The notes under the pieces are model-generated. The model searched no databases and was not told where the DNA came from. It saw only the letters and a list, made by a program, of their open reading frames with translations. Below, piece by piece: positions 3,002-11,218 of a stretch of DNA of 64,000 nucleotides. The position numbers were made by a program, and so were the translations under genes. Positions within the stretch are counted from its first letter, which is position 1. Every line of letters begins with the position of its first letter. Origin of the DNA: Synechococcus sp. CC9605 (GTDB lineage Bacteria > Cyanobacteriota > Cyanobacteriia > PCC-6307 > Cyanobiaceae); contig NC_007516.1 of assembly GCF_000012625.1 (NCBI RefSeq), positions 992,001-1,056,000 on the forward strand, read 5' to 3'.

Positions 3002-3068
3002 GACACGGATGTGGTTGGAATCACGTTGATGGGACTCCACCGGGGCTGCATGACCTGCTCACCTTTCT

Positions 3069-3644: not shown

Positions 3645-4047
3645 TCACGGGCACCGGAGCAAACGTGGGGCCGACAAAATCGAAGTAATCGCGGTGGTCT
3701 CCGATCTTTCCGTCTGGATTGAAGCTGAGTCGGGTCGCTCCCGGGTAGATGAACTCAATTCCTTTGATCTTGAGTCCCATGCGCCATTCAACAAAGGCTG
3801 TTTCACCATTCACCACCACCGACTCCGTTTCCAGGAAAACGTCATCACAGCGCTGCATCAGACCGTCCTGGGCAAGGATGTAGGCGTCGACCCCCTGCCG
3901 TTCCTGGGTTGGATCGGTGAAGTGCACGTCGTCGGCGTAGACGGCCTTCCATTGCGCAGCTGTGGGGCCAGCAGTGCCGTAGGGCTTGGTGAACAGGGCA
4001 CGGATCTGTTCGGCGTCCAGCGGGGGGTGAAGCATGGGAGTGGTCAT
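3601..4047 (-). CDS. SnoaL/NTF2-like protein
   Basis: The 148-residue protein has the cone-shaped NTF2/SnoaL pattern: N-terminal helix, 'WKAVYADDVHFTDPTQERQG', then strands 'ETESVVVNGETAFVEWRMGLK' and 'ATRLSFNPDGKIGDHRDYFDF'. Such proteins are isomerases, hydrolases or binding domains and the fold does not reveal the substrate. Its ATG shares one base with the stop of the upstream DUF481 gene (TGATG), implying coupled translation. Confidence 0.75.
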   Translation of the reverse strand: MTTPMLHPPLDAEQIRALFTKPYGTAGPTAAQWKAVYADDVHFTDPTQERQGVDAYILAQDGLMQRCDDVFLETESVVVNGETAFVEWRMGLKIKGIEFIYPGATRLSFNPDGKIGDHRDYFDFVGPTFAPVPVIGGLVRWLYKRFVA

Positions 4048-4946
4048 CAGAAGTCGGCGCCCAACTGAGCGGTGATGGTGTTGTTCAACTCGGGTGTGCT
4101 CATGCTTTGGTAAATCGATTGCACCCGCAATGTTGTGAACAACTTGCTGTTCTCTGCGGGGTAATAGCGCACCTCAGCGGTCAGGGTGTTGCCCGGTTGA
4201 ACTTCATTTGCCCAGACCGCTGTGAACTGGTTTTGAAGTCCGAACTGAAGCGAAGGCCAGGGTTTCCAGCCGAGATCGGCCGTCAGCGTTGCGCCGCCAT
4301 AGCTGTTGCCGCAGAAGGTGTCGCTGGCACAGGTGATCCCACCCCCGCTCCACTGCAGAGAGGGACCGATGGACAGGGTGAGTTCAGTTGTTTCTGACTT
4401 CAACAACGGGAAGGCGACACCGATGTTTCCCAGAACGGTATTCACCCCGGAATCATTTGTGCCGTTGTATTGGTAGTTGCTCAGAGCAAACAAATCGAGG
4501 TTGGCTGCGATCGGTTTGTCGTAGCGGAGTTCTGCAGATCCTTTCTCTGTATCGATCGAGAGTGGCTCCCCTGAATCCTTCGACTTGCTGGAATTGAAAC
4601 TGCCGCTCAACGACAACTTCTGTTGATCGTCTTTGTAGCGGGTTTTTCCGCTGAAGCTGATCGAGAGGGAGTTGTCGCCATCTTTCTCATTGCCGATCAC
4701 TCCAGCGGAGATCGAGCTGGCCCAAAGGGGCTTGGGCTTGGCTGGTTTGAGTTGGTCTGCGGTGAGTTCCAACCGTCCCAGCTGGGGATGGTTCAGCACC
4801 GTGGTCCCGTTGTCTGGATTTCGCTCAACCAACTCCCCGTTCAGGCTGTCGCCGTTGCGCAGGGTCAAGCTGACGGTCTCGGCCCAGCTCATGCCTGGAG
4901 CCAGGCAGAAGCACAGAAGTCCAGCCGTGGCGAGGCAACGATGCAT
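4047..4946 (-). CDS. DUF481 outer-membrane-type protein with signal peptide
   Basis: From the ATG at 4946 the 299-residue product begins with a signal peptide ('LATAGLLCFCLAPGMSWAE'). A short SH3-like 'LRNGDSLNGELVERN' segment follows, then alternating beta strands typical of a DUF481 barrel ending in 'ITAQLGADF' with a C-terminal Phe, as in outer-membrane proteins. The reading frame stays open to 5252, but that extension is integrase-side DNA and was rejected. The gene lies directly beside the left end of the integrative element, whose att-like repeat starts 5 nt upstream of the start codon, so its original promoter may have been displaced. Confidence 0.75.
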   Translation of the reverse strand: MHRCLATAGLLCFCLAPGMSWAETVSLTLRNGDSLNGELVERNPDNGTTVLNHPQLGRLELTADQLKPAKPKPLWASSISAGVIGNEKDGDNSLSISFSGKTRYKDDQQKLSLSGSFNSSKSKDSGEPLSIDTEKGSAELRYDKPIAANLDLFALSNYQYNGTNDSGVNTVLGNIGVAFPLLKSETTELTLSIGPSLQWSGGGITCASDTFCGNSYGGATLTADLGWKPWPSLQFGLQNQFTAVWANEVQPGNTLTAEVRYYPAENSKLFTTLRVQSIYQSMSTPELNNTITAQLGADF

Positions 4947-4950
4947 GGCG

Positions 4951-4975
4951 TCAGCTGAAAAAGCCTTGGACTGAA
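4951..4975 (+). other. Left att-like core (attL)
   Basis: The sequence starting TCAGCTGAAAAAGCC aligns with 9696-9721 over 26 columns with 22 identities and one gap. On the minus strand it reads as 'QSKAFS', a relic of the 'QSKGFFS' end of the gene at the right boundary. It sits 5 nt from the DUF481 start codon. Confidence 0.6.
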
Positions 4976-5015
4976 AACAGCGTACTTGCGCTGCTGCAAC
5001 TGGTTTGCCACCATC

Positions 5016-6155
5016 ATGTGTGTCCCTAAGCGTGTCCCTATCCGAGTCCCTATGGGAAGGCGAGTGGTTGGACCAAGGCACGTACATGGACCAGAGGGCC
5101 TGTGGTTTGCGGTGTTCAGGGACAAGGATGGCAGGACCTACAGGGAATCGCTCAAGACCAGAGACCATGCCAAAGCACTGAGGTTGTGGCCTGCTGCCTA
5201 CCAACGGCTCAAAGACAAAGCCAATGGAGTCAGACCGGGCTACATCCCACAATCACCAGATCAAGTCGGCTACGAGCTGGACCCTCAGACCGGAGAGCGA
5301 AGGGAGATACAGGCATCCGACGTCTACGGACCCGGTGAACTGGAGGAGGCCATGACCTGGCAACAGGCAGCGGCCATCCATAACGAACGGATAGCTGACA
5401 AGAGAGGCAGAGCCCTCACGGAAAAGACCAAGGCATCAAGCCAAGCCCTAGCCATCAAGCCCATCTCTCACGTCCCGCCTGCATTGGTTCAAGTGAGCGA
5501 TGTGCAGCGATACATGCGGGAGCTGAAGGACCAGGGGCTCTCGGCCAACACGATCATGCAAAGGCACGGGATGCTCCGGGCCATCACCAAGTCCCTGATG
5601 AAGCAGGGCTACCTGACCAACAACGTGTGGGACAGGGTCGAAGCCACGGCAATGCCAGGCGAACCACTTCCCTTCTTAACACCTGAGGAGGTCAAACAGC
5701 TGTGGGATACCGGCAACTGGCATCTCCAGGTCCTGCTCTACACAGGCCTCAGGGAGAACGAGCTATGCCCCCGACAGCAAGCTCACCTGGATGGCAGGTG
5801 GCTGCGTATTGACAGATCACTGGGCTGCTCAGTCAAGAACGACGACAGCCTGCGTGAGGTGTTGCTGCCTGAATGGGCAGGCACTCAACTACCCAAGCCA
5901 CCCGGCAAGACAACCCTCTGGCGGTTGGTGAAGAGAACCACCCCACGGCTCACGCTTCACTCCCTGCGAAGTGCACTCCGCACAGCATTGGCGCAGGCAG
6001 GAGTGACCACTGAGGTCAGCGAACGGATACTGGGCCAGAAGGTTGGCAAGGCAGCAGGTGCCTCTCACGTTCGCAAGTACACCGAGTACACGCGGGAGAT
6101 CATCGGGCCAGCACTCGAGGCTGGGTGGGTAGTGATGGATGAGTGGTGTCGCTAG
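5016..6155 (+). CDS. Tyrosine recombinase (phage-type integrase)
   Basis: The protein has an N-terminal arm-binding-like segment ('GLWFAVFRDKDGRTYRES'), a SAM-like core-binding domain ('SANTIMQRHGMLRAITKSL') and a catalytic domain. The catalytic Arg is in 'YTGLRENEL', the second motif is 'LHSLRSALRTAL' (H-x-x-R), and the nucleophile is a Tyr in 'RKYTEYTREI' near the C-terminus. The start is open: ATG 5016 places the 12-nt repeat inside the coding region as 'VPKRVPIRVP', while ATG 5052 begins after it at 'MGRRVV'. Its position at the left end, reading inwards, fits self-integration of the element. Confidence 0.85.
   Translation: MCVPKRVPIRVPMGRRVVGPRHVHGPEGLWFAVFRDKDGRTYRESLKTRDHAKALRLWPAAYQRLKDKANGVRPGYIPQSPDQVGYELDPQTGERREIQASDVYGPGELEEAMTWQQAAAIHNERIADKRGRALTEKTKASSQALAIKPISHVPPALVQVSDVQRYMRELKDQGLSANTIMQRHGMLRAITKSLMKQGYLTNNVWDRVEATAMPGEPLPFLTPEEVKQLWDTGNWHLQVLLYTGLRENELCPRQQAHLDGRWLRIDRSLGCSVKNDDSLREVLLPEWAGTQLPKPPGKTTLWRLVKRTTPRLTLHSLRSALRTALAQAGVTTEVSERILGQKVGKAAGASHVRKYTEYTREIIGPALEAGWVVMDEWCR
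5020..5052 (+). repeat. Triple 9-mer, candidate integrase arm sites (left)
   Basis: GTGTCCCTA occurs at 5020-5028 and 5032-5040, and GAGTCCCTA at 5044-5052, with an exact 12-nt period. The same 9-mers occur at 9629-9637 and, inverted, at 9652-9660 inside the right end. Their positions 45 nt from the core on one side and 36 nt on the other match the plan of lambda-type integrase arm sites. Confidence 0.6.
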
Positions 6156-6270
6156 CGCCGACAGCATCCACACCAGGCTCCTGCCGATCCTCAAGCAAGA
6201 GCACCTCGAACGGCCCTCTTCTGATCCACTCTTGAGGTGAAGGCTGTGGTGCCTTCAATGCGTCAAGCAG

Positions 6271-6300
6271 GAGCGGGCTGAGGGGCCGGCTCTTTTTTTT
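6271..6300 (+). terminator. Terminator after the integrase
   Basis: A GC-rich imperfect stem (GAGCGGGC...GGCCGGCTC) is followed by eight T residues. Confidence 0.65.
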
Positions 6301-6371
6301 GGATCAGAAGGCCAGCAAAGTCAGTAGTCCGCCTCACCAGCCACAAGACTGAAACCAGCTGATCCAACGCC

Positions 6372-6890
6372 GTGCTGCTCCTGCTGGCTTTCAACTTGAT
6401 CGTCGTTCAAGAACCGGCGACCCCGCCTCCAATGAACTTGGCCTGCCCAGACGAAGTGCGACAACAGCTGGACGGGCTCTACGAATGGCAGGTGCAGCGC
6501 ATGGACCAACCGAATAACACCTCCACTTCGCTCTCAAGCCAGAGCGAGCGCTTCAGTCCTAGTCTATTCAGTCTGCTGACGGAAGCCCGGCAACTCACCC
6601 CATCAAAGGATGGCCGCTATTTGGACTTCGACGTCTTCAGTAACACCCAGGTGCGGACCTTTTCAGCAGTCATTACCGGCTGCAGCGCGGCCCAGAAGAA
6701 CAGCATCCTTGCTGCAGTGGAGGTGCAAGCCGGATTGCGCAACACCCCCAGCGCAACACCCCGACGATTGGAATACGAACTACAGCGGGACTGCACAGGC
6801 CAGTGGAAGATCGCAGAAATCACTTACCGCAATGAGCGGGTGTTTCACCTGAGGACTTATCTCGAGAAACTTGTGAATCCAACACCCTGA
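6372..6890 (+). CDS. Secreted protein of unknown function, 172 aa
   Basis: Starting at GTG, the product opens with a short hydrophobic signal-like segment ('LLLLAFNLIVVQEPATPPP'). It then has a helix ('EVRQQLDGLYEWQVQRM') and strands around 'YLDFDVFSNTQVRTFSAVI' and 'LEYELQRDCTGQWKIAEITY'. The layout resembles NTF2-like lipocalin-sized DUF3828 proteins, which are exported. It is cargo of the integrative element. Function unknown; the family link is tentative. Confidence 0.6.
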   Translation: MLLLLAFNLIVVQEPATPPPMNLACPDEVRQQLDGLYEWQVQRMDQPNNTSTSLSSQSERFSPSLFSLLTEARQLTPSKDGRYLDFDVFSNTQVRTFSAVITGCSAAQKNSILAAVEVQAGLRNTPSATPRRLEYELQRDCTGQWKIAEITYRNERVFHLRTYLEKLVNPTP

Positions 6891-6931
6891 TCTTCAACAG
6901 CCAAGCTGATAAAGGAGATCAACATCTCTGC

Positions 6932-7162
6932 ATGCGTCGCAATTTCCTCCTGCTCAGAGGCTTACTGCTGGCGCTGAGCCTTCGGACCACTCTCCCCGCA
7001 GCGGCCATGGAAGTTGGCCTCCGATCTCTGATGGCAGACGGTGAAATACCAAAGGTTGCCCTGGAGATCTATGAGAAAAGGTCCCGAGAAAGAGTTGCGA
7101 GAGCCGAAGCCAGGACCGCAATAGCTGACTTCATCAATGACGCCGAAGGAGGACCGTTCTGA
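6932..7162 (+). CDS. Small secreted protein, 76 aa
   Basis: An AAGGAGAT ribosome site precedes the ATG. The first 25 residues ('RRNFLLLRGLLLALSLRTT' to 'PAAA') form a signal peptide. The mature part is a charged helix rich in Arg, Glu and Ala. It lies between the 172-aa exported protein and the amber-interrupted gene, all in one direction. No family recognised. Confidence 0.55.
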   Translation: MRRNFLLLRGLLLALSLRTTLPAAAMEVGLRSLMADGEIPKVALEIYEKRSRERVARAEARTAIADFINDAEGGPF

Positions 7163-7164
7163 AC

Positions 7165-7545
7165 ATGACCAACGCACCTACTTCTCCCAGCAACAACGAC
7201 GACGACTTCCGTCGCGCACTCATCCGCACCTTGACGAATGGGCTGAATCAAAGGCAATGCCACCATCGCCAGAACATGGCGGGGCAGGAGGCACTGTCAG
7301 ATCAGATCGATCAGCGGTAGTACCGTACCGATGTCGGCATCGGCATAGTCCTGAAGATGCAGATGTACACCGAGGACGCCCGAAAGGAAGACAGCGACGC
7401 CACCAAGGAATCGCTTGCGGTGATCACAGGGTTGCTCAGCTCAATCCTCAAAGAGCTGCAAGGGAATGATTTCCTGCGCATCCCAAAAGAGGAGCGCCAG
7501 TACACGGAGAACAATGAGGGGTACAATAGTCTCTCTGTGGGTTGA
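7165..7545 (+). pseudogene. Gene interrupted by an in-frame amber codon
   Basis: A strong AAGGAGG ribosome site (7146-7152) precedes ATG 7165. The frame runs 51 codons to a TAG at 7318 and then, in the same frame, a further 75 codons to the stop at 7543. Both halves look like coding sequence ('DDDFRRALIRTLTNGLNQR' before, 'ATKESLAVITGLLSSILKEL' after). A one-base change TGG to TAG would explain the interruption. An independent second gene starting at ATG 7357 is the alternative. Function unknown. Confidence 0.45.
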
Positions 7546-7549
7546 GCGG

Positions 7550-7816
7550 TCAGGTAGAGGATGGCAGCCGTAAGCCTCCGCTACGGCAAGAAAGACCCCT
7601 GGTGGTGTCAGTCCCAGGGGCTGAGCTCTCCTCGCCGAACTCAAGTTGATGCACTTGTGTGACCAGGTTGTGATTGGCAGGCACGGGGTTGATGACCAGG
7701 TGCAACTCGCGGGCGTATCTCGACCACGTAGCAAGTGATGTGTCAGGACATTGAGCGCCATGGCTAAGACAGCACTGCTCGCAGTTGATTCGCACCTCTG
7801 AGAGCGGCGAGGTCAC
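7550..7816 (-). CDS. Doubtful hypothetical protein, 88 aa
   Basis: The middle of this product ('WSRYARELHLVINPVP') looks protein-like and the start has 'CEQCCLSHGAQC', but the ends are low in information and no ribosome site is clear. It may be a decayed gene of the integrative element. Kept at low confidence because the opposite strand offers nothing better across this stretch. Confidence 0.3.
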   Translation of the reverse strand: MTSPLSEVRINCEQCCLSHGAQCPDTSLATWSRYARELHLVINPVPANHNLVTQVHQLEFGEESSAPGTDTTRGLSCRSGGLRLPSST

Positions 7817-7856
7817 CTTTTTAAGGCTGGTGGCTTCGCTTGGCTATTCGCAGACA

Positions 7857-7890
7857 GGGGGGATCTAGTGAGCCGTCGAGCAGATCCCCC
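7857..7890. repeat. Inverted repeat in the element
   Basis: GGGGGATCT (7858-7866) and AGATCCCCC (7882-7890) form a perfect 9-bp stem around a 15-nt loop. No T-run follows, so it is not a simple terminator. Confidence 0.5.
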
Positions 7891-7969
7891 GAGCCGTAGT
7901 CCGCCCCACATCTGGCCGACTCGTCTCATCTCCACCGATAGCCAGGGAAGGCGACATCGTCAGCCAGCC

Positions 7970-8007
7970 TCAGGAGCCCAACCCATCTCCTTCTGCCAGG
8001 TGGGCGC
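7970..8007 (+). repeat. Direct repeat copy 1 flanking the secreted repeat protein
   Basis: This 38-nt sequence (TCAGGAGCCCA...TTCTGCCAGG) matches 8660-8697 at 33 of 38 positions. Read on the minus strand it encodes 'WQKEMGWAPE', like the C-terminus of the small Cys/His protein at 1951-2127. Confidence 0.6.
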
Positions 8008-8021
8008 TGCTCCCTCGTGGA

Positions 8022-8546
8022 TCACCACTCGGTCACTGGATAAGAGTGGAACCTGTTAGCTCTTTTGATTGGTGAACGTAGGATTGGCTCCCTGTCGATA
8101 GAGAAAATCCCTTTAGCTTTTTTGCTTGGAATACGTGGGAACGGCTCCCTGTCGATAGAATTAAGTCCTTTGGTTCTGCTTGGAAGACGTGGAAAATACA
8201 TGTGCTGATTTTTGGCCTTGGGAAGAAAAGTTCCTACATCAGGCTCAGAAATGTATCCCTTGCTTGAAGAGGATCTCAATTCGTTAATCTTCACGCCACG
8301 GGGGAGTGGCTTAAAAACACCATTAAAGCCAGGATCGGGCTGATTACTAAATCCCTTGGTTGAAGAGGGTCTCAATTGTTTACTTTTTACACCAATAGGG
8401 AGTGGCCCAAAGAATTTTTTAATGCCAGGATCGGGCTCATTAGTAAATCCGGCAGGATTCGCTCCTACGACTGCAGGGAATGTGCCGACAAGCAGTGATG
8501 TTGAGGCAATGGCAATCAAAGTTTTGATGGTTCGGGTCATGAGCAT
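8022..8546 (-). CDS. Secreted protein built of internal repeats
   Basis: The 174-residue product has a signal peptide ('TIKTLIAIASTSLLVGTFPA') and then tandem repeats. Two units of about 32 residues begin 'GFTNEPDPG' and 'GFSNQPDPG', contain 'FGPLPIGVK'/'FKPLPRGVK' and end 'SSTK'/'SSSSK'; a third, degenerate unit begins 'GYISEPDVG'. Two 19-residue units follow around 'SIDREPFPRIP' and 'SIDREPILRSP'. The product is very basic and Pro/Ser-rich. The DNA is AT-rich compared with its surroundings, a sign of separate origin, and the gene is bracketed by 38-nt direct repeats. No function can be assigned. Confidence 0.6.
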   Translation of the reverse strand: MLMTRTIKTLIAIASTSLLVGTFPAVVGANPAGFTNEPDPGIKKFFGPLPIGVKSKQLRPSSTKGFSNQPDPGFNGVFKPLPRGVKINELRSSSSKGYISEPDVGTFLPKAKNQHMYFPRLPSRTKGLNSIDREPFPRIPSKKAKGIFSIDREPILRSPIKRANRFHSYPVTEW

Positions 8547-8659
8547 TAGAAAAGCAATTGGTGGCAGGGTTATCCCCTTTGCTGCACACACCATCCCCGG
8601 ATTCAATTACTGAACCGTTGACAGAGCTCACAAGGGACTGTGACCTTGCTCACCCCGCT

Positions 8660-8697
8660 TCAGGAGCCCAGCCCACCTCTTTCTGCCAGGTCAGCGC
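8660..8697 (+). repeat. Direct repeat copy 2 flanking the secreted repeat protein
   Basis: Partner of 7970-8007. The two copies enclose the AT-rich secreted-repeat gene like a cassette. Confidence 0.6.
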
Positions 8698-8725
8698 CCA
8701 GAGCTTGCAGCGCTTCTTCAAAGGA

Positions 8726-8887
8726 TTACCCGATGCTTGGTGTGTTTCTGCCGTACTTCTGCCCTGCAGCAATCACGCCTGGATCTCTCCTGATCTCTGC
8801 CTTCAGTGATCGAAGCCTCCAGCTCGATGCCAGGGAGTTGGGGCCATTGACCAGCAGGTCCAGCTCACGGTCGCTCAGTTGTCTCAT
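8726..8887 (-). CDS. Small hypothetical protein, 53 aa
   Basis: From ATG 8887 the product 'MRQLSDRELDLLVNGPNSL' continues as a charged helical peptide to 'YGRNTPSIG'. Past the stop the same frame carries on with 'FEEALQALGADLAERGGLGS', so this may be a longer gene cut by a TAA at 8726. It is upstream of, and in the same direction as, the secreted repeat protein. Function unknown. Confidence 0.4.
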   Translation of the reverse strand: MRQLSDRELDLLVNGPNSLASSWRLRSLKAEIRRDPGVIAAGQKYGRNTPSIG

Positions 8888-9174
8888 TGCTCATCCCCTC
8901 CTTTGAGCTGTTCAAGTGTTCCGAGTTAGGCCTTCAGTTCCTTCAGTCGACTGGCATCCAACTTGTCCAGTCCCATCTCTTTGATCACCTGATCATCCAG
9001 CAAAAGCCATATGCCGTTAGCGACAACGTCGGTATCAGCCTCAAGGTGCTGGGTGTCCAGGTGCTGGAGATCAAGACCCAAGACAGCGCACAAGGCAATC
9101 GTGACCCCTATGCCTTCGGGGATGACCACCTGAGCCAAGACGACCTGGGTGCCCTGTTCAAGAAGGCAGCTTGA
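8887..9174 (+). CDS. Possible fragment of a phage-like protein
   Basis: The C-terminal half ('DNVGISLKVLGVQVLEI' then 'DDHLSQDDLGALFKKAA') is convincing and resembles the end of single-stranded-DNA-binding proteins of phage (DUF2815-like). The N-terminal half is not convincing and the only start is TTG, so this is probably a truncated gene. A minus-strand frame (8926-9225) ending 'EMGLDKLDASRLKELKA' also looks protein-like, and I cannot decide between them from sequence alone. Confidence 0.35.
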   Translation: MLIPSFELFKCSELGLQFLQSTGIQLVQSHLFDHLIIQQKPYAVSDNVGISLKVLGVQVLEIKTQDSAQGNRDPYAFGDDHLSQDDLGALFKKAA

Positions 9175-9308
9175 TCTCTCATCGAGGTGCGCATCGGGGC
9201 ACATGGGCCAGCTCCACAACGGCAATCGCAGCTCTGCTGCTCTTACCTGTTCCGCTGGCTCATCTTGCTTGCTCGTGATCCTGAGCTGCGGAAGTTGGCC
9301 TTCAATGA

Positions 9309-9527
9309 AGACTGAAGACTCTGATCGTTATTACGGTTCTTAGCTTCTTCTCCTTCTTGCTCCTGTGGACCCTCGTCTACATGCTCCTCATCACCGAGTT
9401 GAACCTTTACTTCGATTACGACTGGAGGAGGAAAGGGAAAGCACGAGCTGAAAAGTTGGCACACCTTGTTGCGTACTTCGGCGGCTTCTTTCTCTTTCTC
9501 AAGTTCGTGGTGCCTTTCTTGGACTAA
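9309..9527 (+). CDS. Small membrane protein with unresolved start
   Basis: The frame encodes two membrane segments ('VITVLSFFSFLLLWTLVYM' and 'LVAYFGGFFLFLKFVVPFL') joined by a charged linker 'DYDWRRKGKARAEK'. There is no ATG or GTG at a suitable place: an ATG at 9305 is out of frame by one base, and ATG 9381 would remove the first helix. A frameshift near the start or a rare initiation codon is likely. Confidence 0.45.
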   Translation, partial: RLKTLIVITVLSFFSFLLLWTLVYMLLITELNLYFDYDWRRKGKARAEKLAHLVAYFGGFFLFLKFVVPFLD

Positions 9528-9628
9528 AGCCCGTGCATCACCGGTTCTCCACAGCGGCTAGTCAGTTGGCGCGGTGCCCAGGTCGTTGCCGCGGCTTTCC
9601 GCAGCGGGCTGGTGCGGCGCCCTTTGAC

Positions 9629-9660
9629 GTGTCCCTATTCTTCGCTTGAGGTAGGGACTC
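9629..9660 (+). repeat. Candidate integrase arm sites (right)
   Basis: GTGTCCCTA (9629-9637) and TAGGGACTC, the inverse of GAGTCCCTA (9652-9660), match the left-end 9-mers exactly and lie 36 nt inside the right core. Confidence 0.55.
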
Positions 9661-9695
9661 CAGTCAGTGACTGCAATCGTTCTGCCCTGGTCAGC

Positions 9696-9721
9696 TCAAC
9701 TGAAAAAACCCTTGGATTGAA
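9696..9721 (+). other. Right att-like core (attR)
   Basis: TCAACTGAAAAAACCC and the following bases match the left core. The sequence is the 3' end of the 41-residue membrane protein gene, so insertion here keeps that gene intact. Confidence 0.6.
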
Positions 9722-9821
9722 GCCAAAGGCCAATGGCAAGCAGGGGCCCGAAGCCGGCGATCAATACGGTGATCTTCAGGCGCAGCGGTGAAACCTGAGG
9801 TTTGGTCTCTCGAAGAGCCAT
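9696..9821 (-). CDS. Small membrane protein, 41 aa; target gene of the element
   Basis: The product starts 'MALRETKPQVSPLRLKITV' and has one membrane helix ('LIAGFGPLLAIGLWLQ') ending 'SKGFFS'. Its last 26 nt coincide with the right att-like core. The left core next to DUF481 encodes the variant 'QSKAFS', so before insertion this gene probably stood directly upstream of DUF481. Function unknown. Confidence 0.6.
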   Translation of the reverse strand: MALRETKPQVSPLRLKITVLIAGFGPLLAIGLWLQSKGFFS

Positions 9822-9873
9822 GGCAAGGCACAAAGGCAAATGAACTTAAACGCTGTAAGGCGTTGATGCCTGC

Positions 9874-10170
9874 TTAGAGCTCGTACTCCTCTTCAAACTG
9901 CTGAATCAGACCCTTGTAGAGCGCCAGCAGGCCCTCGGTTTCTTCGCAGAAACCGTCCGTTGTGTACTTCGCGATCAGATTCACCACGGCGCTGCGGATT
10001 TGCGTGAAGGCGCCGAGGTACTCACCCTGGATGTCCTCATCGCGGATGTCATTGATCAGAGCGCCCACCAGCTCAATCTTCCGCTTGGCAGCGGCCATCT
10101 CCGCTTCCATCTCTTTGTTGAGCTTGCGGCGTTTCTTCGGCATCCCCTCAACCGGTTCACTCGGCGACAT
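9874..10170 (-). CDS. Conserved cyanobacterial hypothetical protein, 98 aa
   Basis: A Lys-rich start ('PKKRRKLNKEMEAEMAAAK') leads into helices ending 'EETEGLLALYKGLIQQFEEE'. The initiator may be the ATG nine codons in ('MPKKRR'), at 10143. The composition suggests a soluble all-helical protein. Function unknown. Confidence 0.7.
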   Translation of the reverse strand: MSPSEPVEGMPKKRRKLNKEMEAEMAAAKRKIELVGALINDIRDEDIQGEYLGAFTQIRSAVVNLIAKYTTDGFCEETEGLLALYKGLIQQFEEEYEL

Positions 10171-10240
10171 TACGGGAGCCGCATGCCTTCCTCGTTCGAG
10201 CGGCTTCCCTTAGCGTCGGGTTCGCTCGACCCATGGCCTT

Positions 10241-10471
10241 GTGAATCGGACCTTTCGCGGTGTTGCTTACGTGTCCGTCTGGGTGGTGATCTGGGGGACG
10301 GTGGCGTCCTTGATGGACTGGATGCTGCTGACGGGTGAGGTTTATGAAACGGCCAGCGCCGGTCAGGGGGTGACGTTCATCGCCTACGGGGCCGCAACAG
10401 TGGTGTTGGCCACGCGGTTCTCGGGGCGTTTTCTTGCAGACGCCGATTCAGAGGCTTCGGATCAGGAGTGA
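10241..10471 (+). CDS. Small membrane protein, 76 aa
   Basis: From GTG 10241 the protein has two hydrophobic stretches ('VAYVSVWVVIWGTVASLMDW' and 'VTFIAYGAATVVLATRF') and an acidic tail. Its 3' end overlaps the convergent TauE/SafE gene by 24 nt. Resembles conserved hypotheticals of marine Synechococcus; function unknown. Confidence 0.6.
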   Translation: MNRTFRGVAYVSVWVVIWGTVASLMDWMLLTGEVYETASAGQGVTFIAYGAATVVLATRFSGRFLADADSEASDQE

Positions 10472-11218
10472 TCCACCCATCAGCAGCGCCAGGATCTCGA
10501 AGGCTTGCTTGACCAGGCGGCTTCCTTTCACCAGGGAATAGTGCGCCCCCAGAAAGCCTCCGATCAGCGATCCGAGAACGAGAGCGGGAAGCCAGTCCCA
10601 ACGGATTTCACCGCTCAATCCCAGCACCAGCGCCCCGGTGCCATTCCACCCCAGACCCACCAGCACCAGGGTGTGGGCGACGGCTCTGGCATAGCTCAGC
10701 CCGAACCAGCGCACCATCCAAAGGGTGACGAATAATCCCGTTCCTGAGGTTAGTGAGCCGTTGAGAATGCCGATGATGAAGAGGCCGCAGCTGCCAAGTC
10801 CGACGGTGCGGGCTGTCAGGGGTCGGGGCTGGTCTGTCGTTCCCAGATCAGGTTTCCGGGCCGAGTACAACCCCAGCCCCAGGGTCAGCAGCCCAAGGCT
10901 GGTGGTGGCCACTTGATCCGGCAGCGCAAGAACCATGCTGGCCCCCACAAACACTCCTGGGAGACCGGCGGCCAACACCAGCGCGGAGCGTTTGAGATCA
11001 AGGCTGCTGGCCCGCCAATGAAGTCCCGTGGCTCCCAGCCCCAGGGCCACGCTGGCCACTTTGTGGGTGGCCAGCGCCATGGAGAAAGGAAGGCCCAGAA
11101 GGATGAGGGCGGGCAGTTGCACCAGTCCTGCTCCCCCTCCCGCCAAAGCTGAGAGGGCATTGGCGCCTATGGCGATGCCCAGCAGGGCGATTTGCATCAA
11201 CAGTTCAGACACACTCAA
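10448..11218 (-). CDS. TauE/SafE-family membrane exporter
   Basis: The 256-residue polytopic protein has about eight helices with the family's two-fold pattern: 'LSALAGGGAGLVQLPALILL' early and 'GILNGSLTSGTGLFVTLWMV' in the second half. Family members move small sulfur or organic anions across the inner membrane. Its ATG overlaps the stop of the upstream 11215-11712 gene by four bases, indicating an operon. Substrate cannot be told from sequence. Confidence 0.85.
   Translation of the reverse strand: MSVSELLMQIALLGIAIGANALSALAGGGAGLVQLPALILLGLPFSMALATHKVASVALGLGATGLHWRASSLDLKRSALVLAAGLPGVFVGASMVLALPDQVATTSLGLLTLGLGLYSARKPDLGTTDQPRPLTARTVGLGSCGLFIIGILNGSLTSGTGLFVTLWMVRWFGLSYARAVAHTLVLVGLGWNGTGALVLGLSGEIRWDWLPALVLGSLIGGFLGAHYSLVKGSRLVKQAFEILALLMGGSLLIRSL

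Follow-up and report, generated by a model that had tools for sequence, protein, structure and literature searches.

RESULTS

An insertion at the 3' end of a small membrane-protein gene

The window analyzed here, a 64,000-base stretch (G000:C1:992001-1056000) of the one-contig, 2,510,659-base genome of Synechococcus sp. CC9605, contains a candidate integrative element lying between two host genes that are read on the same strand. The gene on the left (positions 4047 to 4946, minus strand) encodes a DUF481 protein (Pfam PF04338, E = 9e-8), and the gene on the right (9699 to 9821, minus strand; stop codon at 9696 to 9698) encodes a 41-amino-acid (41-aa) membrane protein. Between them are a gene for a 367-aa tyrosine integrase (5052 to 6155, plus strand), a series of smaller open reading frames (ORFs), and a pair of imperfect core repeats at 4951 to 4975 and 9696 to 9721. 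The original prediction, which had been made from the DNA letters alone, named the 3' end of the 41-aa gene rather than a tRNA gene as the target of integration. This assignment held: the stop codon of the 41-aa gene falls within the right-hand core, and no tRNA gene was found in the 64-kb window. Because this core covers the stop and last codons of the 41-aa gene, the gene remains intact after insertion.

The prediction also implied that relatives should carry an uninterrupted junction between the two flanking genes, and they do. Among 34 genomes of the genus, the 41-aa protein was matched in 32, DUF481 in 30, and both in 29; the genomes not counted were G009, G012, and G029 (41-aa gene only), G018 (DUF481 only), and G017 (neither). 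The two genes are adjacent in 27 of these 29 genomes, at distances of 7 to 105 bp that are approximate because some of the DUF481 matches are partial (the first 27 residues in G003 and G028). The two inserts among the 29 open gaps of 4752 bp in the window's genome and 16,333 bp in G027. When the window flanks were joined by script, the resulting sequence was 96.6% identical to the nearest empty site, that of G023, over 1155 bp across the junction, and five further empty sites aligned with it at 80 to 94%. At the empty sites of G028 (L037 3430-3507) and G003 (L038 3870-3947), the junction is intact and is followed by a match to just DUF481 residues 1 to 26-27.

Core repeats and arm-type sites

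Local alignment of the two cores reproduced the positions and the identity that had been proposed for them (22 identical columns out of 26, with a single gap among the four differences), and none of 2000 random 60-mers drawn from window positions 10000 to 63900 matched their score. The five arm-type 9-mers G(T/A)GTCCCTA were likewise recovered. The pattern GWGTCCCTA has five exact matches in the 64,000 bases, compared with 0.37 expected, and 0 of 100 shuffles gave five; all five lie at the element ends. Three copies on the plus strand, beginning at 5020, 5032, and 5044, make up the left arms (5020 to 5052) with a period of 12 nucleotides (nt), a tandem spacing for which the chance expectation was 0.00. 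The right-end sites (9629 to 9660) consist of one direct copy, GTGTCCCTA, on the plus strand (9629 to 9637) and one inverted copy, GAGTCCCTA, on the minus strand (9652 to 9660). A looser version of the arm pattern matched eight times in the window, five times at the element ends and otherwise at 3029, 3772, and 44874. On the 9-mer counts, the 12-nt spacing, and the random-60-mer control for the core, a chance origin of these repeats was rejected.

Base composition was not telling (55.6% G+C in the element versus 57.3% in the window), no known RNA family matched window positions 4000 to 10500 at an E value of 0.5, a promoter scan gave 2 matches (1.7 expected), and terminator-like sites numbered 9 (5.2 expected). 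A terminator-like hairpin with a T run, by consensus match only, is present at 9707 to 9731 on the minus strand, at the 3' end of the 41-aa gene, where it overlaps the core.

The integrase and its start codon

The integrase was identified by its match to PHROG 1 (integrase; E = 6e-24 with the ORF taken from 4986), by alignment with its relatives, by PDB profile matches, and by comparison of a structure model with known folds. With the catalytic residue list for lambda integrase given in PMC10187409, the alignment showed R234, K262, H303, R306, and Y343 to be conserved in the window protein, which has Gln329 at the H/W position of the R-K-H-R-H/W-Y set. The fold model matched archaeal Xer (4a8e; Z = 14.6, root mean square deviation [rmsd] 8.9 over 231), SSV1 (3vcf; Z = 14.2, rmsd 3.0 over 147), P2 (5c6k; Z = 12.5, rmsd 2.1 over 123), Tn1549 (6en2; Z = 12.3, rmsd 6.2 over 226), and lambda (1z19; Z = 12.2, rmsd 5.6 over 225).

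The longest version of the integrase ORF encodes 389 aa from a TTG at 4986, and in the window its frame is open upstream as far as the core. The original prediction had suggested that the arm repeats may lie inside the start of the integrase coding sequence; the comparison does not favor this placement. G332 and G324, two genomes of a second genus that carry related integrases, have in-frame stops within the arm region upstream of the integrase, and the conserved N terminus in the alignment reads MGRR or MGRQ. Because of these stops and this conserved N terminus, the integrase most likely starts at the ATG at 5052 to 5054, and the 389-aa ORF is probably over-long. G027 does not have the window's upstream ATG. 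The arm repeats would probably lie in the 5' leader and overlap the start codon by one base, the A of the ATG at 5052 being the last base of the third 9-mer, and the same one-base overlap is found in G027, G332, and G324. Coupling of arm binding to integrase expression is plausible from this layout. In the more distant G086, two copies of a different 9-mer, TTGCTCTAT, with a 12-nt period were seen just upstream of the integrase gene (by eye, with no chance estimate).

A larger sister element at the same site

The prediction had proposed a search for other elements with the same integrase and 9-mer, and the insert of G027 is one. This 16.3-kb element (C1:677142-693474) lies between the 41-aa gene and DUF481 in the same orientation as in the window, has cores and arms at the same site, and encodes an integrase 78% identical to that of the window. 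Its left end has three arms with a 12-nt period; at the right, two direct copies are spaced 12 nt from each other, and only a degenerate inverted copy was recognized by eye. Judging from this comparison, the window right end seems to have lost one direct arm copy. The looser arm pattern placed all five of its matches in 19 kb of G027 at the element ends. Downstream of the element, the DUF481 gene of G027 (L035 13476-14369) contains two internal stops, perhaps reflecting decay after separation from its upstream neighbor.

The two elements carry different cargo. A blastn comparison at E values up to 0.1 aligned just two segments, one running from the left core almost to the end of the integrase gene (1197 bp, 79% identity) and the other covering 97 bp of the right end (80% identity). 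Six-frame tblastn outside the integrase and ends gave short matches only, with E values of about 0.003 or worse, one of these weak matches comprising 18 residues within the G027 polymerase gene. The cargo of G027 includes a T7-type RNA polymerase, a T5orf172/GIY-YIG-like protein, a second tyrosine recombinase, a terminase-small-subunit-like protein, and a thioredoxin-like protein that falls just under Pfam's cut-offs. The polymerase (957 aa; L073 6879-9752; PHROG 414, E = 3.5e-90) matched 2360 phage records, all at less than 60% identity, with the ten matches listed lying at 22 to 25%; it had no match in viral_contigs by a short-peptide-pattern scan, in which absence is weak evidence. The terminase-like protein, of 80 aa, matched PHROG 891 (terminase small subunit, 6.6e-5), as did 3 of 3 homologues (best E = 1.1e-5). 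It was the one protein pointing toward virion genes in the scanned ORFs of G027, and no others were seen. A strong hairpin (z = -3.2; L073 1900-1990) adjoins the terminase-like gene in a stretch that is conserved with a further element, at glyS, described below; it could be a packaging or terminator signal.

Reversed orientation in a second genus

The integrase was matched in 12 of 400 family genomes, with three genomes besides the window's own within its genus. The nearest relatives outside the genus are those of G332 (52% identical) and G324 (48 to 66% in two pieces, broken). In both, the site is again the 3' end of the 41-aa gene (present in 28 of the 31 genomes of this second genus), and the integrase gene that comes after it is read in the same direction as the 41-aa gene, the reverse of the arrangement in the window and G027. 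Fragments of the integrase gene are also found on the strand of the 41-aa gene in G291 and G306, 83 and 137 bp after it, and remnant-like sequence at the site was noted in G286 and G296 by eye only. Thus, four cases of the reversed orientation come from sequence matches and two from reading, and no case of the window's orientation was seen in the second genus. The integrase lineage has switched orientation at one site.

Arms with a 12-nt period also accompany the integrase start codon in G332, where the middle copy has diverged, and in G324, where there are base changes. At the far end of the G332 element, a core-like sequence accompanies two diverged copies of the arm, the contig ending before any known host gene; 4 of the 5 matches to the looser arm pattern in 15.9 kb of G332 were at element ends. 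We considered whether an inverted repeat in the host core (attB) could account for the reversed orientation, but the idea gained no statistical support: 9-bp half-sites match at no more than 6 of 9 positions in two cores and 5 of 9 in G332, and 5000 shuffles of each of those two cores reach 6 of 9 in 9% (window's genus) and 18% (G291) of cases.

Right arms, a core, and diverged left arms occur in succession in G324:C20 (L092 4000-4200), an order resembling that of a tandem pair or a circle junction. A similar series of right arms, core, and left-end-like sequence was read by eye at L090 13830-13960. Together, L092 and L090 suggest tandem accretion of elements at one site.

Mosaic cargo of the window element

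Downstream of the integrase gene, a 45-bp piece (6165 to 6209, plus strand) is 98% identical (44 of 45) to part of the integrase gene of the glyS-site element of the same genome. It runs into a copy of chromosomal segment C1:1432757-1433561 (6201 to 7005, plus strand) that comprises a whole 172-aa gene and about 25 codons of ggt. The two mismatches between this copy and its source both lie at the left edge, leaving 785 bp (6221 to 7005) identical, and the two pieces join at GCACCT, a microhomology found in both donors. At the donor locus, the sequence continues into a 590-aa ORF encoding gamma-glutamyltranspeptidase (ggt; Pfam PF01019, E = 1.3e-114), and G022 shares this arrangement (76% over 2427 bp). 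Because the chromosomal copy runs into the whole of ggt and G022 is arranged alike, the copy in the element is, on sequence grounds, the derived one, with ggt cut after about 25 codons. This comparison indicates that part of the mosaic cargo is a very recent copy of DNA from another place on this chromosome.

The 172-aa ORF (6372 to 6890, plus strand) belongs to no family found, and its product was matched in 25 of 151 family genomes. It is followed by a 76-aa ORF in which the start of ggt is fused to other sequence (6932 to 7162, plus strand) and by two stretches resembling dispersed sequence of the host genome: 7545 to 8004, with pieces at 77 to 88% identity at several other places, and the short 8649 to 8721, at 83 to 90%. 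Between these, a 194-aa ORF (8022 to 8606, minus strand) covers a region with internal repeats and was found in 1 of 151 family genomes, the host itself. A 56-aa ORF near the right end (9357 to 9527, plus strand) also has no family found.

Pfam and PHROG scans revealed no convincing domain in the cargo ORFs. The ORF at 8887 to 9174 has a weak PHROG match to a Gp2.5-like single-stranded-DNA-binding protein (E = 0.0063) with no Pfam support. The predicted lack of capsid and replication genes is borne out to the extent that the scanned ORFs gave no convincing family, a search that decayed genes could escape.

A second element at glyS

The host genome carries a second element (L117 4399-13619; G000:C1:1150398-1159618) whose integrase gene starts just after glyS, as identified by Pfam. 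A perfect, largely palindromic 16-bp direct repeat, ATTTGAATCGATTCAA, is found in the 3' end of glyS and again 9205 bp further. This element and that of G027 have 1067 bp at 85% identity and smaller pieces in common, and the G027 terminase-like gene falls in the 1067-bp stretch. The terminase-like protein is present in 4 of 400 family genomes, and its single copy in the window's genome (C1:1158797-1159036) is inside the glyS-site element. The window element yielded no terminase small subunit in a search with the G027 protein, so a small terminase of its own, by which a satellite might be recognized, was not found there. No phage match was obtained for the terminase-like protein or its 1.6-kb surroundings. 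In G033:C32 (L165 1-2600), the protein occurs with G027-looking surroundings upstream of dapF (diaminopimelate epimerase by Pfam).

DISCUSSION

In the phage lambda system, a tyrosine integrase acts on core and arm sites. A lambda-type integrative element is expected to have direct core repeats at its two ends and arm-type repeats inside each of them, and relatives are expected to show the site empty; all of these features were found here. The window thus very probably contains a small integrative element with a lambda-type integrase, whose target is the 3' end of a protein gene. The insertion itself, its site, its ends, and its arms are established by comparison of sequences; strand exchange, arm binding, and autoregulation we infer. 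The tyrosine integrase would have recombined the element's core (attP) with its counterpart where the 41-aa gene ends (attB), so that about 4.75 kb came to lie between an intact 41-aa gene and DUF481. Arm sites of the GTGTCCCTA type, three near the integrase gene and one or two at the far end, are presumably contacted by the N-terminal part of the protein, and its remainder would bind the cores. Because the three near arms cover the leader and the start codon of the integrase gene, their binding probably also keeps integrase production low. The arrangement is like that of lambda (PDB 1z1b and 1z1g in the fold comparison) in its core and arm sites and tyrosine integrase; it is unlike lambda in having its tandem arms in front of the start codon of the integrase gene and in that no IHF or Xis sites were identified.

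Several observations weigh against this interpretation. The cores disagree at 4 of 26 columns, and the window right end has one direct arm copy where G027 has two. The integrase scores 19.1 bits with Pfam, below the cut-off of 27.1 bits, and has Gln329 after an invariant Gly at a position occupied by His in 5 of 5 aligned relatives. Its fold model is middling (predicted local distance difference test score [pLDDT], 75.3; predicted template modeling score [pTM], 0.47), with residues 333 to 344 by the nucleophile below 50, and the fold comparison hardly covers its N-terminal domain. In addition, no excisionase was recognized in the element. Because Gln replaces His in the integrase and one right arm copy is missing, the window copy may be crippled, and we think it more likely than not that it is impaired now.

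The strongest competing explanation sees in the window element what deletions have left of a larger phage satellite like that of G027, retained only because its integrase and ends survived. The G027 element has the same integrase and both ends yet spans 16.3 kb, with its terminase-small-subunit-like protein and T7-type RNA polymerase, and the window integrase and right arms look damaged. Neither blastn nor six-frame tblastn, however, revealed a convincing trace of G027 cargo in the window element, much of the window cargo is of other origin, and elements of this kind may simply exchange cargo. We give this explanation an appreciable but minority chance.

It is improbable that the element is a prophage remnant of a T7-like cyanophage. 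Such phages can carry integrases and integrate, according to PMC8776855, and G027 encodes a T7-type RNA polymerase; however, the two phages tested in that study use a tRNA-Leu site, whereas the window site is the 41-aa gene. Moreover, a tblastn search of 50,697 phage records with the window integrase found nothing at an E value of 1e-3, the element DNA had no phage match at 0.01, and no convincing structural gene was found in the scanned ORFs. The least probable explanation by far, a chance island in which the integrase gene and cargo arrived by separate illegitimate insertions and the repeats are coincidental, draws on the visibly patchwork cargo with its microhomology joint but is largely refuted by the G027 element, which shares the core and arms at the same site; the core and arms also lie at the exact ends, and the neighbor genes are adjacent in 27 of 29 genomes.

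The small integrative element identified here also differs from described element families. Tycheposons insert at tRNA genes; the location of the window element at the 41-aa gene, with no tRNA in 64 kb, excludes it from this group. Tycheposons and the tRNA-Phe and tRNA-Cys integrase elements of marine picocyanobacteria are similar to it in belonging to the same organism group and in having tyrosine recombinases and variable cargo, whereas the latter elements (PMC10187409), being tRNA associated, differ from the window element at its protein gene. PICMI satellites of the Vibrionaceae, as described in PMC10803314, are likewise small, with direct repeats located where a protein gene, fis, has its 3' end, but they have alpA and primase as core genes and a different host and target. 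The window element is not of this kind, since its site is the 41-aa gene rather than fis and no AlpA or primase family was found in the scanned ORFs.

The mechanism is conventional, and the lineage appears to be undescribed in the literature searched. No published record of the element was found in that literature, whose coverage mostly excludes subscription papers; in PMC2441476 (Dufresne 2008), a figure marks CC9605 integrases and islands, and nothing on the window element was found in the accessible part. Short-peptide-pattern scans, in which absence is weak evidence, returned no match for the single integrase sequence in genome_contigs or viral_contigs and, for the integrase alignment, two loci in genome_contigs and none in viral_contigs.

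A broader possibility, which we put forward tentatively and consider less likely than not as a whole, is that marine Synechococcus strains carry undescribed phage satellites at the 3' ends of protein genes (the 41-aa gene and glyS). These satellites would swap cargo and a terminase-containing module, with one integrase lineage having switched orientation at the same site, and the element of the window, a stripped member in this scheme, would be refilling itself with chromosomal DNA by microhomology joins.

The 785-bp exact copy adds a new example of an element capturing a gene from the chromosome. With two insertion orientations at one site, this lineage is a compact system for studying what determines the direction of integration, and it offers a defined integrase, its arm and core sites, and a natural empty site in many strains.

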